46,406 nucleotides of DNA, from assembly GCA_017427385.1 (NCBI GenBank), contig JAFRSW010000007.1:1-46406 (forward strand), given 5' to 3'. A program made the translations under genes and the position numbers. The notes under the pieces were generated by a model. That model was not told the DNA's origin. It ran no database searches and saw nothing but the letters and a program-made list of their open reading frames with translations. Source of the stretch: Bacteroidales bacterium. GTDB lineage: Bacteria > Bacteroidota > Bacteroidia > Bacteroidales > UBA932. Below, in pieces: positions 6 through 2,542 of the stretch. Numbering within the stretch: position 1 is the stretch's first letter; each line of letters begins with the position of its first letter.

Positions 6-908
6 TCAACTGTTTTTTCTGATAGCGAGGATGTTATCGACGTCTTCGCGGATGAAATATACGAAATTTCCGCGTTTAATCCGAGGAACCTTGTGTTCTT
101 TAAAGACACAGTAGAGGTGATTGCGGGAAAGTCCGTATTTATCAGTGATTTCCGCCATCGTGTAATAGAGGTCTTTCTCCACGTTAAGACCCCTCGCTTC
201 ATCCCAGTGGGTCTTGGAGATATAGGTGATGTTGTTCTTCTTCATTTTGGGAATCTTATGCTCCCGGATGAAGTCGCTGATGGACTCAGTACGCATTCCA
301 GTAGCAGTGCGGACCTCGTCGAAGGTGTACCACTCAGTGACGTGCGTATAGTCCTGATTGGAGAACAAGCGATGCATCACGTCCCGGTCATAGAAGCCGA
401 GGGTCCCAATCATGTGGGTCTTGATTCCGCGCTTCTTGAGCACGGAATAGAACCAGCTATAGGTGACATCGTACTTTTCCATTACCTGTTCTCTTGTCAT
501 CCATTTGCCCAGATCGTCGCCAGGTCCCTGGATGGGGTTGCTTACATTGTAGTCTTCTGCTCGTTTGGCGGCCACTTTCTCCAAGTCTTCACGGGCAATG
601 CGGACGGTCCGGAGCGAGAAGCGTTTCAGAGGGATGTCGTTCTCCTTGATAATCTTGTACAAGGTGTTCCGCGACATCTGGAGGAGTCGGGCGGCATCTG
701 CAATGGTGAGGAAGTTTTTGTCGAGCAGGGCGAGACGTTCTCGCTCCCGGACATCATCCCCAAGATTCTGAAGCCGTTCATCGCGCAGCTTGTGCTTTTT
801 GCTCAAGTTTGCGCATCTGGGGGAGCAGTAGCGAGTGACTGCGAAGTGGGATTCGAACTGGCATCCGCACTGCTCACAAACTTTGAGGTAGAGTCTCTGC
901 GTGTCCAT
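6..908 (-). CDS. Zinc-finger protein with four tandem excisionase-type HTH domains
   Basis: A 300-residue probable DNA-binding protein; no exact family member recognised. Residues 11-32 hold a zinc-finger-like C-x2-C-x13-C-x3-C pattern (C11, C14, C28, C32). Four HTH_17/MerR-like modules follow at about 65-111, 136-182, 193-238 and 248-294. Each has a [F/W/Y]-[L/M/Y]-T start, an S/T-x-x-x-[L/F/I]-Y-like recognition helix and a basic 'wing' ending before an acidic D-V/D-L helix. Single HTH_17 domains are typical of excisionases and small mobile-element regulators; four in series is unusual. No signal peptide or membrane segment. It lies downstream of mnmE on the same strand but has its own promoter and a 275-nt gap with repeat arrays, which suggests separate and possibly autogenous control. 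ATG at 908 is the only start that keeps the first cysteines. Function beyond DNA binding is inference. Confidence 0.85.
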   Translation of the reverse strand: MDTQRLYLKVCEQCGCQFESHFAVTRYCSPRCANLSKKHKLRDERLQNLGDDVRERERLALLDKNFLTIADAARLLQMSRNTLYKIIKENDIPLKRFSLRTVRIAREDLEKVAAKRAEDYNVSNPIQGPGDDLGKWMTREQVMEKYDVTYSWFYSVLKKRGIKTHMIGTLGFYDRDVMHRLFSNQDYTHVTEWYTFDEVRTATGMRTESISDFIREHKIPKMKKNNITYISKTHWDEARGLNVEKDLYYTMAEITDKYGLSRNHLYCVFKEHKVPRIKRGNFVYFIREDVDNILAIRKNS

Positions 909-951
909 AGGGGTACTTGCGCAGCATAGTCTACTTTCTGCCGGTTTTCAA

Positions 952-990
952 TGTTCAACGATGTTCAAGGTTGTTCAACGTTGTTCAATC
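952..990. repeat. Four tandem 10-bp repeats (TGTTCAAnnn) in the HTH gene leader
   Basis: TGTTCAA occurs at 952, 962, 972 and 982, exactly 10 bp apart, with variable trinucleotides CGA, GGT, CGT and TC. All copies therefore sit on one face of the helix. The array lies between the predicted promoter (1041-1073) and the start codon (908) of the four-HTH protein. Candidate operator; the link to that protein is inferred from matching copy number and position. Confidence 0.8.
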
Positions 991-1031: not shown

Positions 1032-1052
1032 TTTGTACCGCAAAGGTACAAA
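1032..1052. promoter_or_regulatory. Inverted repeat over the -7 box of the HTH gene
   Basis: Perfect 8-bp arms TTTGTACC (1032-1039) and GGTACAAA (1045-1052) are separated by GCAAA. The palindrome covers the predicted -7 box and start point of the minus-strand promoter, a place where a bound dimer would block transcription. Candidate operator; the binding protein is not known. Confidence 0.6.
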
Positions 1053-1073
1053 TAAGGTACAAATACCGACAAA
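1041..1073 (-). promoter_or_regulatory. Bacteroidota-type promoter of the HTH gene
   Basis: On the minus strand TTTG (complement of 1070-1073) is followed after 21 bp by TACCTTTG (complement of 1041-1048), a full match to the TTTG/TAnnTTTG consensus. The start point would be near 1036, giving a leader of about 128 nt that contains the four TGTTCAA repeats. Confidence 0.7.
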
Positions 1074-1075: not shown

Positions 1076-1183
1076 AGTTAAGAAATGCATCGAAATTTAA
1101 CTGTTACACATAAAACCTCTGGACCTGTAACGAGGTGAGTGTCAGTTAGATTCCGATAGTTTCCGTAATTTATTGATAATCAA

Positions 1184-2542
1184 TTACTTCCCGATGCAGA
1201 ACTTACTGAAGATGCTTCCCAGGACTTCGTCGGGGGCGATTTCACCGAAAATGGAGCCCAATTCGCGGATGGCGGAACGGAGGTCTTCGGCAACGAGGTC
1301 GGTGGGGATGCGGGCATCGAGGCCGGAGCGGACTGCGGCGAGGTCGGCGCGGGCACGCGACAGGGCTTCGTAATGGCGGAGGTTGGTGACCAGGGTTGCG
1401 TCCTCGGAAAGGCTGGTTGCAGAGTAGCTTTCTAAGATTCTGGAGCGCAAGTCTTCCAGGCCTTCGCCGGTTTTGGCGGATATCCTCAAATCGCATGCAG
1501 GGAAGCCGGCCTGATCTTCAGCCACCAGGTCCGCCTTGTTAAACAGCATAATCAAAGTTTGTGCAGGGGAGAGATGCTCCTTGATCAGCGCAGCGGCCTT
1601 TCCTGCTTCTTCTGGCGAAGCAGAACCATCCAGGACGCCAAGCACAAGTTCGGCCTTATGCAAGCTCTGCAGGGAGCGTTCTATGCCTATCTTTTCAATA
1701 GTATCCGAAGCTTCGCGGATGCCGGCAGTGTCGATGAAACGAAACTGCACGCCACCCAGAGTCAGGACTTCTTCCACAGTATCACGGGTTGTTCCGGGAA
1801 TGTCGGACACTATGGCGCGATCCTCGCCGAGAAGGGCGTTCAGCAGGGTGCTCTTGCCGGAATTCACCGCACCTACGATTGCAACCGGCACACCGCTCTT
1901 GATGGCATTACCGGCGCGGAAGGAATCACAGAGACGCTGAACGTGGGCGCTTGTTTCGTCCAAAAGCGAGCGCAGCCTGCTTCTGTCAGCAAACTCCACT
2001 TCTTCCTCGCTGAAATCCAACTCCAGTTCCATAAGGGATGCCAGCTTAACCAGCTGGTCCCTAAGTACTTTCAATTCCGATGAATACTTCCCCCTGAGCT
2101 GATTGAAGGCAACCCTGTGGGCAGCCTCTGAACCGGCGGAAATGACATCCGCAACCGCCTCTGCCTGAGCAAGATCCATCTTGCCATTCACGAAAGCACG
2201 ACGGGTAAACTCTCCGGGCTCCGCACTGCGGGCGCCAGCGGCGATAAGCAATTCAAGAATGCGCGATACGATGTAACCCGATGCGTGGCAGCTTATCTCC
2301 ACGGAATCCTCCCCGGTATATGAATAGGGAGCACGGAAGATGCTCACCAGCACGTCGTCCACATCCGCTATGCTGCCGAACCTCAGGGTGTATCCCTCCG
2401 AAGACACGGCGGTGCCCGTGCGTAAACGCACCACGGCGTCCGCAATCTTCAGGGCATCCGGGCCGCTTATGCGGATAATGGAAATTGCACCGGTTCCCAC
2501 AGAGGTTGCCGGTGCACAAATCGTATCGTCGAACTTGAACAT
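1184..2542 (-). CDS. mnmE: tRNA uridine-5-carboxymethylaminomethyl modification GTPase MnmE
   Basis: MnmE works with MnmG to place the (carboxymethyl)aminomethyl group on U34 of certain tRNAs, using GTP, a folate one-carbon donor and FAD. The 452-residue length is normal. Seen here: N-terminal folate-binding domain (about 1-118), helical domain, inserted G domain with P-loop GAVNSGKS at 224-231 and switch motif DIPGTTRD at 247-254, NKAD base-recognition motif, and the diagnostic C-terminal C-I-G-K whose cysteine is catalytic. It begins 3 bp after the rho stop codon, so it is the second gene of a rho-mnmE operon. ATG at 2542 gives the canonical MFKFDDTICAPAT start. The 3' end of this gene is a known island integration site in Enterobacteria, but no integrase is visible here. 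Confidence 0.97.
   Translation of the reverse strand: MFKFDDTICAPATSVGTGAISIIRISGPDALKIADAVVRLRTGTAVSSEGYTLRFGSIADVDDVLVSIFRAPYSYTGEDSVEISCHASGYIVSRILELLIAAGARSAEPGEFTRRAFVNGKMDLAQAEAVADVISAGSEAAHRVAFNQLRGKYSSELKVLRDQLVKLASLMELELDFSEEEVEFADRSRLRSLLDETSAHVQRLCDSFRAGNAIKSGVPVAIVGAVNSGKSTLLNALLGEDRAIVSDIPGTTRDTVEEVLTLGGVQFRFIDTAGIREASDTIEKIGIERSLQSLHKAELVLGVLDGSASPEEAGKAAALIKEHLSPAQTLIMLFNKADLVAEDQAGFPACDLRISAKTGEGLEDLRSRILESYSATSLSEDATLVTNLRHYEALSRARADLAAVRSGLDARIPTDLVAEDLRSAIRELGSIFGEIAPDEVLGSIFSKFCIGK

Follow-up and report, generated by a model that had tools for sequence, protein, structure and literature searches.

Apl of phage 186, RdfS of ICEMlSymR7A and Pukovnik Xis, recombination directionality factors (RDFs) of the HTH type, are small proteins with one HTH each. 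In phage immunity regions, the repressor and its operators are exchanged together. Previously, Apl has been described as both an excisionase and a repressor, with sites that are direct repeats one helix turn (10 to 11 bp) apart (available text of PMC7498355). RdfS places one molecule on every 10 bp, and four molecules on 40 bp, with no apparent consensus (excerpts of PMC11963761). BldC of Streptomyces, a 68-residue MerR-like HTH protein, sits on direct repeats in head-to-tail order; whiI has two of them and smeA four (excerpts of PMC5859096). Tn4555 is a mobilizable element of Bacteroides, and TnpA is its reported targeting protein. Furthermore, in the available text of PMC5704250, deletion of tnpA renders the insertion of Tn4555, which otherwise has a preferred locus, essentially random, and the islands SGI1 and MGIVchHai6 integrate in the 3′ end of trmE (= mnmE).

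The present study concerns one end of a 46,406-nucleotide stretch of DNA from a Bacteroidales bacterium, analysed as a whole and called the window here. Its features are the following.

6 to 908, minus strand: open reading frame of 300 aa (ATG at 908) for a Tn4555 TnpA-like protein with a putative zinc finger (ZnF) and four HTH modules, the element's first gene
813 to 878, minus strand: N-terminal four-cysteine cluster C11-C14-C28-C32, a putative zinc finger by sequence
573 to 716, minus strand: HTH1 (aa 65-112), the module that tracks the array sequence (iterated module profile, Mantel tests)
363 to 503, minus strand: HTH2 (aa 136-182; iterated module profile)
192 to 335, minus strand: HTH3 (aa 192-239; iterated module profile)
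27 to 167, minus strand: HTH4 (aa 248-294; iterated module profile)
949 to 988, minus strand: phased array of four 10-bp units, TTGAACAACG TTGAACAACC TTGAACATCG TTGAACATTG (pattern search, array score)
1032 to 1063, minus strand: second motif, two TTTGTACC copies spaced by 11 bp and one more in inverted orientation, candidate integrase arm sites overlapping the promoter-like stretch
1184 to 1198, minus strand: putative crossover region and left att site, the last mnmE codons (CIGK stop), from the comparison of loci L032 to L038
1184 to 2542, minus strand: mnmE, tRNA modification GTPase (TrmE_N, MnmE_helical), the host target gene

The cysteines of the window protein are spaced CxxC-x13-CxxxC, and all four are invariant in the 16 rows of alignment A2 and the 32 rows of alignment A5. 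Pfam HTH_17 by itself marks three stretches in the protein, and the iterated module profile marks four modules. The protein scores 87.7 bits against HTH_17 (cut-off 27), so an excisionase-type HTH domain is present, and 46.1 against TIGR01764 (excise; cut-off 28.8); phrog_66, ‘excisionase and transcriptional regulator’, matches as well. The original prediction of a zinc finger followed by four HTH modules is thus borne out in sequence, as a Cys4 cluster with four HTH_17-like modules. The top solved structure for HTH1, retrieved with the A2 (ZnF-HTH1) profile, was 4j2n (Gp37, E 2e-10), which is Pukovnik Xis (excerpts of PMC11963761). A structure search with the window's single sequence returned no relevant structure, and an AlphaFold model run without an alignment had a pTM of 0.25. 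By sequence, HTH1 belongs to the same fold family as Apl, RdfS and Pukovnik Xis. In contrast to these, the present family carries, fused to this HTH, a Cys4 cluster and as many as four further modules, and its specificity appears to be exchanged as a cassette.

Tn4555 TnpA is a full-length homologue of the window protein (26%, 80 of 308 aligned columns, E 7e-31). A family copy bears the same protein id, WP_004292844.1, as the TnpA named in the available text of PMC13183296. A close copy (L151) has the Cys4 cluster and four modules of the window protein, and in Tn4555 the integrase gene comes next, as in L032, the window's 99%-identical relative. Copies on plasmids that carry the annotation Tn4555 TnpA are members of the family too. 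By sequence and gene order, the window protein can be assigned to the Tn4555 TnpA family. The leaders of Tn4555-type tnpA genes (L178 and L180, 200 bp before 3483) have two sets of four phased units separated by 39 bp, where the window has one; of these units, 4 and 3 pass the array score in L178 and 4 and 4 in L180. Tn4555 is also reported to prefer another locus (PMC5704250, in excerpt), and the excerpts of PMC5704250 and PMC13183296 do not mention an exchangeable cassette. The window array resembles the direct repeats of Apl 10 to 11 bp apart (PMC7498355, in excerpt), unlike the sites of RdfS, which have no apparent consensus (PMC11963761, in excerpt). BldC, unlike the window protein, is a stand-alone transcription regulator with 9-bp sites and, in the excerpted text of PMC5859096, no link to an integrase. 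SGI1 and MGIVchHai6 are gammaproteobacterial islands that share the target site with the window element.

The heptamer TGTTCAA occurs on the plus strand at 952, 962, 972 and 982 (TTGAACA units at 952 to 988 on the gene's strand). The array spans −80 to −41 relative to the ATG, with 40 bp between the two. Its score is 17.3, whereas 1000 dinucleotide shuffles of the same leader average 1.6 and reach 7.5 at most. The exactly four copies at exact 10-bp spacing originally noted are confirmed. The pattern TTGAAC(N4)TTGAAC(N4)TTGAAC, with two mismatches at most, was found at one locus per genome, this one, in 8 of 8 genomes, each time as two matches that overlap. Reversed, this three-unit pattern served as control and had no match in the 8 genomes searched. 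All seven close relatives (L032 to L038) keep four units, TTGAACA being unaltered in L032, L033, L034 and L036, changed by one base in L035 and L038 and by two in L037; the bases flanking the array diverge in the leaders of L035, L037 and L038. In the direction of transcription, the end of mnmE is followed by the promoter-like stretch with the TTTGTACC motif, the array and the ATG. The stretch at 1032 to 1063 is called promoter-like after TTTG / TAnnTTTG, which we take to be the Bacteroidales-type consensus, and we infer from the sequence that the region before the ATG is a leader with a predicted promoter. In two other elements, a counterpart of the TTTGTACC motif is present at both element ends. 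In L036, a 48-bp segment of the leader that includes some of the promoter-like motif is tandemly duplicated (columns 90-137 of alignment A1).

A ZnF plus HTH1 profile search had matches in 75 of the 393 genomes of the order. Among 117 loci examined, 116 matched the profile, and four without the Cys4 pattern (L013, L022, L028, L167) were dropped. The 112 Cys4-HTH genes and the window gave 113 leaders, reduced to 99 by removing exact duplicates and to 80 by removing near-duplicates; L110, whose leader is too short, was left out. A period-10 array (score above 6) was detected in 68 of the 80 non-redundant leaders and in 1 of 400 shuffled leaders, and arrays with periods of 8, 9, 11, 12 and 13 in 3, 0, 7, 0 and 0 of the 80. 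Mean self-identity over the last 110 bp of the leaders was 0.39, 0.355 and 0.328 at lags 10, 20 and 30, and 0.25 to 0.30 elsewhere. Phased repeats upstream of homologues were what the original prediction staked itself on, and they do stand before most of them. Chance repeats were rejected on these counts and on the presence of the three-unit pattern, but not of its reversed control, in the genomes searched. The repeat sequence varies by subfamily (TTGAACA, TTGACGTG, TTTACATA, TGGCACAA, GGTACGTG, GAGACA). The 12 leaders below the threshold belong to nine two-module, one three-module and two four-module proteins. A weaker 10-bp phasing lies beside the crossover site (window 1125 to 1190 and 50 other loci), with a lag-10 identity of 0.397 and 0.28 to 0.35 at other lags; the leader region from −250 to −140 likewise peaks at lag 10 (0.364). 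The phasing near the crossover might be a site for the constant modules HTH2-4; judged by eye, its strength had no relation to module number.

Sequence on the mnmE side varies among L032 to L038 up to about TGCATCGGAAAGTA, and beyond it the element side is alike, which is the signature of site-specific insertion. All of these relatives, whose assemblies are titled Bacteroidales or Bacteroidia, share the gene, either in full or truncated where a contig stops; the MnmE C-terminus lies upstream of it in 6 of 7, and the same end is visible in L038. In L032, a tyrosine integrase with Arm-DNA-bind_5 comes next after the gene; the window begins, at its left edge, with base 1 of contig C6 in its assembly. 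The window gene, just downstream of mnmE, is therefore the first one of a gut-bacterial integrative element that the contig end truncates. Beyond the L032 integrase lie a 510-aa open reading frame that matches no Pfam model, a pair of HTH_17 genes and a gene for a BT4734-like protein; the two small HTH_17 genes are alternative RDF candidates. ORFs of 371 to 385 aa occupy the integrase position in L033, L034 and L035; downstream integrases were recognised by Pfam in L032, by annotation in three plasmid records and by motif only elsewhere. The window's own assembly yielded only two distant integrases (33% identity) in the search for the element's integrase, and a DNA search of the assembly for it, run without a positive control, was empty. 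For the right end of window-type elements, stretches of 3 to 26 kb on five contigs gave no convincing second att core. The element downstream of L032 (L080/L081, G038:C2) carries a BREX-like set, with strong matches to the BrxP, BrxC, PglZ and BrxL models.

Across the family, mnmE is the gene directly upstream in 76 of the 104 loci whose sequence reaches far enough (duplicates counted). In 15 of the 28 non-mnmE loci (L023, L104, L115, L129, L142, L145, L147, L152, L155, L158, L160 to L163 and L168), the upstream ORF ends in DFEEVK, marking a second target; in L023, the one tested, it is Hsp70 (DnaK-like) by Pfam. Fourteen of these 15 have two modules, and a clear 10-bp array is missing in 7 of their 13 scored leaders. 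A scan for tRNA genes as targets in 27 of the 28 non-mnmE loci (L104, the same gene as L023, was left out) found a single tRNA; it is in L124 and does not precede the gene.

The array is probably read by HTH1 only, the first of the protein's reading domains, as judged from sequence covariation. In 24 four-module loci, array distance correlated with HTH1 distance at r = 0.606 (Mantel), and at 0.59 to 0.62 with HTH2, 3 or 4 controlled. Corresponding values for HTH2, 3 and 4 with HTH1 controlled were −0.223, −0.049 and −0.057, none significant; uncontrolled, they were 0.13 to 0.18 (HTH3 0.18, p 0.013; HTH4 0.14, p 0.039). The correlation with HTH1 was 0.724 (n = 15) after removal of nine swap-group loci, 0.614 in two-module loci (n = 12) and 0.556 in one-module loci (n = 15), and HTH2 retained r 0.20 with the array in the two-module set (p 0.07). 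The Cys4 segment added nothing significant with HTH1 controlled (r = 0.089, p = 0.10, 25 loci). The permutations in these Mantel tests ignore shared ancestry; L017 was excluded from both the Mantel tests and the pair comparisons, and L024 likewise from the correlations with HTH1 to HTH4 given above. In 58 loci, with the first 120 residues standing for HTH1 and the window given the L003 integrase, the array correlated with ZnF-HTH1 at 0.417 given the integrase N-terminus, and with the integrase at r = 0.141 (p 0.002) given ZnF-HTH1. The view that array and protein belong together thus holds, the array sequence following the protein far more than the integrase. Pairs of loci were compared where both had at least two modules, an array score above 6 and the same module number. 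Array similarity was 0.40 in the 21 pairs with HTH1 below 60% and the rest above 75% identical, which draw on few loci repeatedly (all-pairs mean 0.43), and 0.89 (minimum 0.79) in the 14 pairs with HTH1 at least 75% identical. Exceptions are L128/L164, just outside the cut (HTH1 49%, rest 74%), with an array similarity of 0.69, and the swap-group pair L140/L150, with 0.67 at HTH1 62%.

In L103, L125, L150 and L140, the integrases are 91 to 98% identical (297 to 372 residues) and HTH2-4 82 to 100%, against 36 to 49% in the N-terminal segment and 29 to 62% in HTH1. The same holds for L117, L136 and L146, with 96 to 97% in the integrase (333 to 337 residues) and 86 to 100% in HTH2-4, against 48 to 54% in the N-terminal segment and 26 to 42% in HTH1. 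DNA identity within these swap groups, in 60-bp windows, is mostly 78 to 100% from the crossover to about −100 (dropping earlier, near −140, in L117/L136 and L103/L125), 35 to 70% across the array and ZnF-HTH1. Starting at about +375 to +455 and continuing through the integrase, most windows exceed 77%. The replaced block is about 470 bp long. Similar cassettes, of three types, recur on the two backbones: TTTTAC in L125 and L146 (HTH1 74%, array similarity 0.84), TTGACTATGG in L103 and L117 (67%, 0.84) and GGTACG in L150 and L136 (66%; the L136 repeats compared by eye). The array and ZnF-HTH1 thus appear, from these sequences, to be exchanged together as one cassette across relatives. As in phage immunity regions, binding specificity and operators would be replaced jointly, in a single block, while the rest of the element is conserved; in contrast to those regions, the block covers the N-terminal third of the protein only. 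This exchangeable HTH1-array cassette is the new point of our study, the pairing of array and protein having been proposed already, and a literature search over titles and the starts of abstracts found no description of this array or cassette.

The original prediction had each module read one repeat, so that one protein molecule would span the array. Exactly 4 repeats in 16 of the 26 four-module members with arrays, the window among them, speak for such a code, as does the coverage of about 10 bp per module by proteins of the HTH1 fold (excerpts of PMC11963761). One-module proteins, however, have an array in 15 of 15 cases, with 4 to 7 repeats; the corresponding figures are 12 of 21 (3 to 6 repeats) for two modules, 6 of 7 (5 each) for three, 26 of 28 for four (4 repeats in 16, 3 in three, 5 in five, 6 in one, 8 in one) and 3 of 3 (3 to 4) for five. 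This count covers complete genes, with 6 of the 80 left out as incomplete or interrupted and L017 barely above the score cut; the method returns at least two repeats, so that a single repeat cannot come out, and counts are uncertain by about one where adjacent counts score alike. Repeats equal modules in 16 of 62 complete genes with an array, all 16 of them four-module, so the proposed agreement between the two numbers among homologues failed; the numbers are anticorrelated (Spearman −0.59). A 4:4 match is thus characteristic of proteins with four modules and no general rule. Furthermore, arrays differ between proteins whose HTH2-4 are 82 to 100% identical, HTH2-4 have no significant residual covariation with the array, and the window repeats are identical over 7 bp though its modules differ. 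One module per repeat was therefore rejected, HTH1 alone covarying significantly with the others controlled and the counts agreeing so seldom, and we consider it very unlikely. It is also improbable, if slightly less so, that HTH1 docks specifically and the same molecule's HTH2-4 lie on adjoining repeats without reading bases. This would account for the preferred 4:4 count with specificity still tracking HTH1, but three of the repeats then need not share sequence, yet the array units change together with HTH1, and one-module proteins carry 4 to 7 repeats.

The array could instead be an arm-type site bound by the integrase, such as other tyrosine recombinases have in their att sites, since the L032 integrase has Arm-DNA-bind_5, the array lies within the left att arm and a small residual correlation (r = 0.141) links it to the integrase N-terminus. 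Near-identical integrase N-termini (distance 0.00 to 0.04), however, go with different arrays. In two stretches with tandem elements behind mnmE (G338:C1, 728000-774500, and G245:C8, 91500-118000), it is TTTCTACC that occurs twice in the left arm of the first element and once at its right end, 49 to 50 bp before the next crossover. This motif is short and has, on the same strand, three further copies in the 46.5-kb G338 stretch and none further in G245, so its placement is supportive and not proof. In G338 the array pattern is present only at the two left ends; the strict pattern has no match anywhere in G245, which is thus uninformative on array placement. With different arrays beside near-identical integrase N-termini, and TTTCTACC at the element ends instead, the arm-site reading was rejected and appears highly improbable. 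An autoregulatory operator without any role in recombination would agree with the position of the array, after the promoter-like motif and before the ATG, and with its extension to the start codon in L020, L025 and L027. We nevertheless hold this rather unlikely, as Tn4555 TnpA, the closest relative that has been characterised, affects integration (PMC5704250, in excerpt), and Apl and RdfS act at att sites and promoters alike (excerpts of PMC7498355 and PMC11963761).

Our preferred reading, which we regard as reasonably probable on the sequence comparisons, is that the array is a cooperative operator and att-arm site read by HTH1 of several molecules, and that array and ZnF-HTH1 form an exchangeable cassette. 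HTH1 of several molecules would fill the array cooperatively, head to tail, one per 10-bp turn, in the way of single-module proteins with this fold such as Apl and BldC. Occupancy would hold down the element's own operon (gene and integrase) from just after the promoter and would also fold the left att arm between the crossover site and the integrase gene. HTH2-4 would not read array bases but travel with the integrase, as likelier partners of the integrase or of fixed att or target DNA. Autogenous control of this kind fits the array position and, by analogy, the known RDF-type regulators. Against an HTH1 filament stands the preference of four-module members for 4 repeats (16 of 26), which a multi-molecule filament as such does not predict.

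Since array and ZnF-HTH1 are exchangeable, elements with the same integrase and target would differ in the array they answer to. The cassette may, in a proposal we put at slightly under even chances, be a self-recognition unit, one half of the protein addressing the element's own att arm and the other the integrase and target. With the halves separate, several elements could stack at one site without answering to one another's arrays, ignoring one another in the manner of phage heteroimmunity. The stacked pairs of G338 and G245 have HTH1 modules 35% and 33% identical, and their arrays differ. In 14 of 15 same-genome pairs, from 8 of 9 genomes with multiple matches (G374, whose second match is partial, was left out), HTH1 identity is 0.19 to 0.71; L169 and L170 in G292 have identical HTH1, which speaks against strict incompatibility.

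The 80 leaders, with proteins of one to five modules, constitute a natural series in which evolution has already run the domain swap. An array-reading HTH1 separable from the rest of the protein would make it possible to test directly how HTH proteins encoded by such elements steer tyrosine integrases. Furthermore, the arrays and their readers could serve to type these elements and to predict which of them can share one insertion site.
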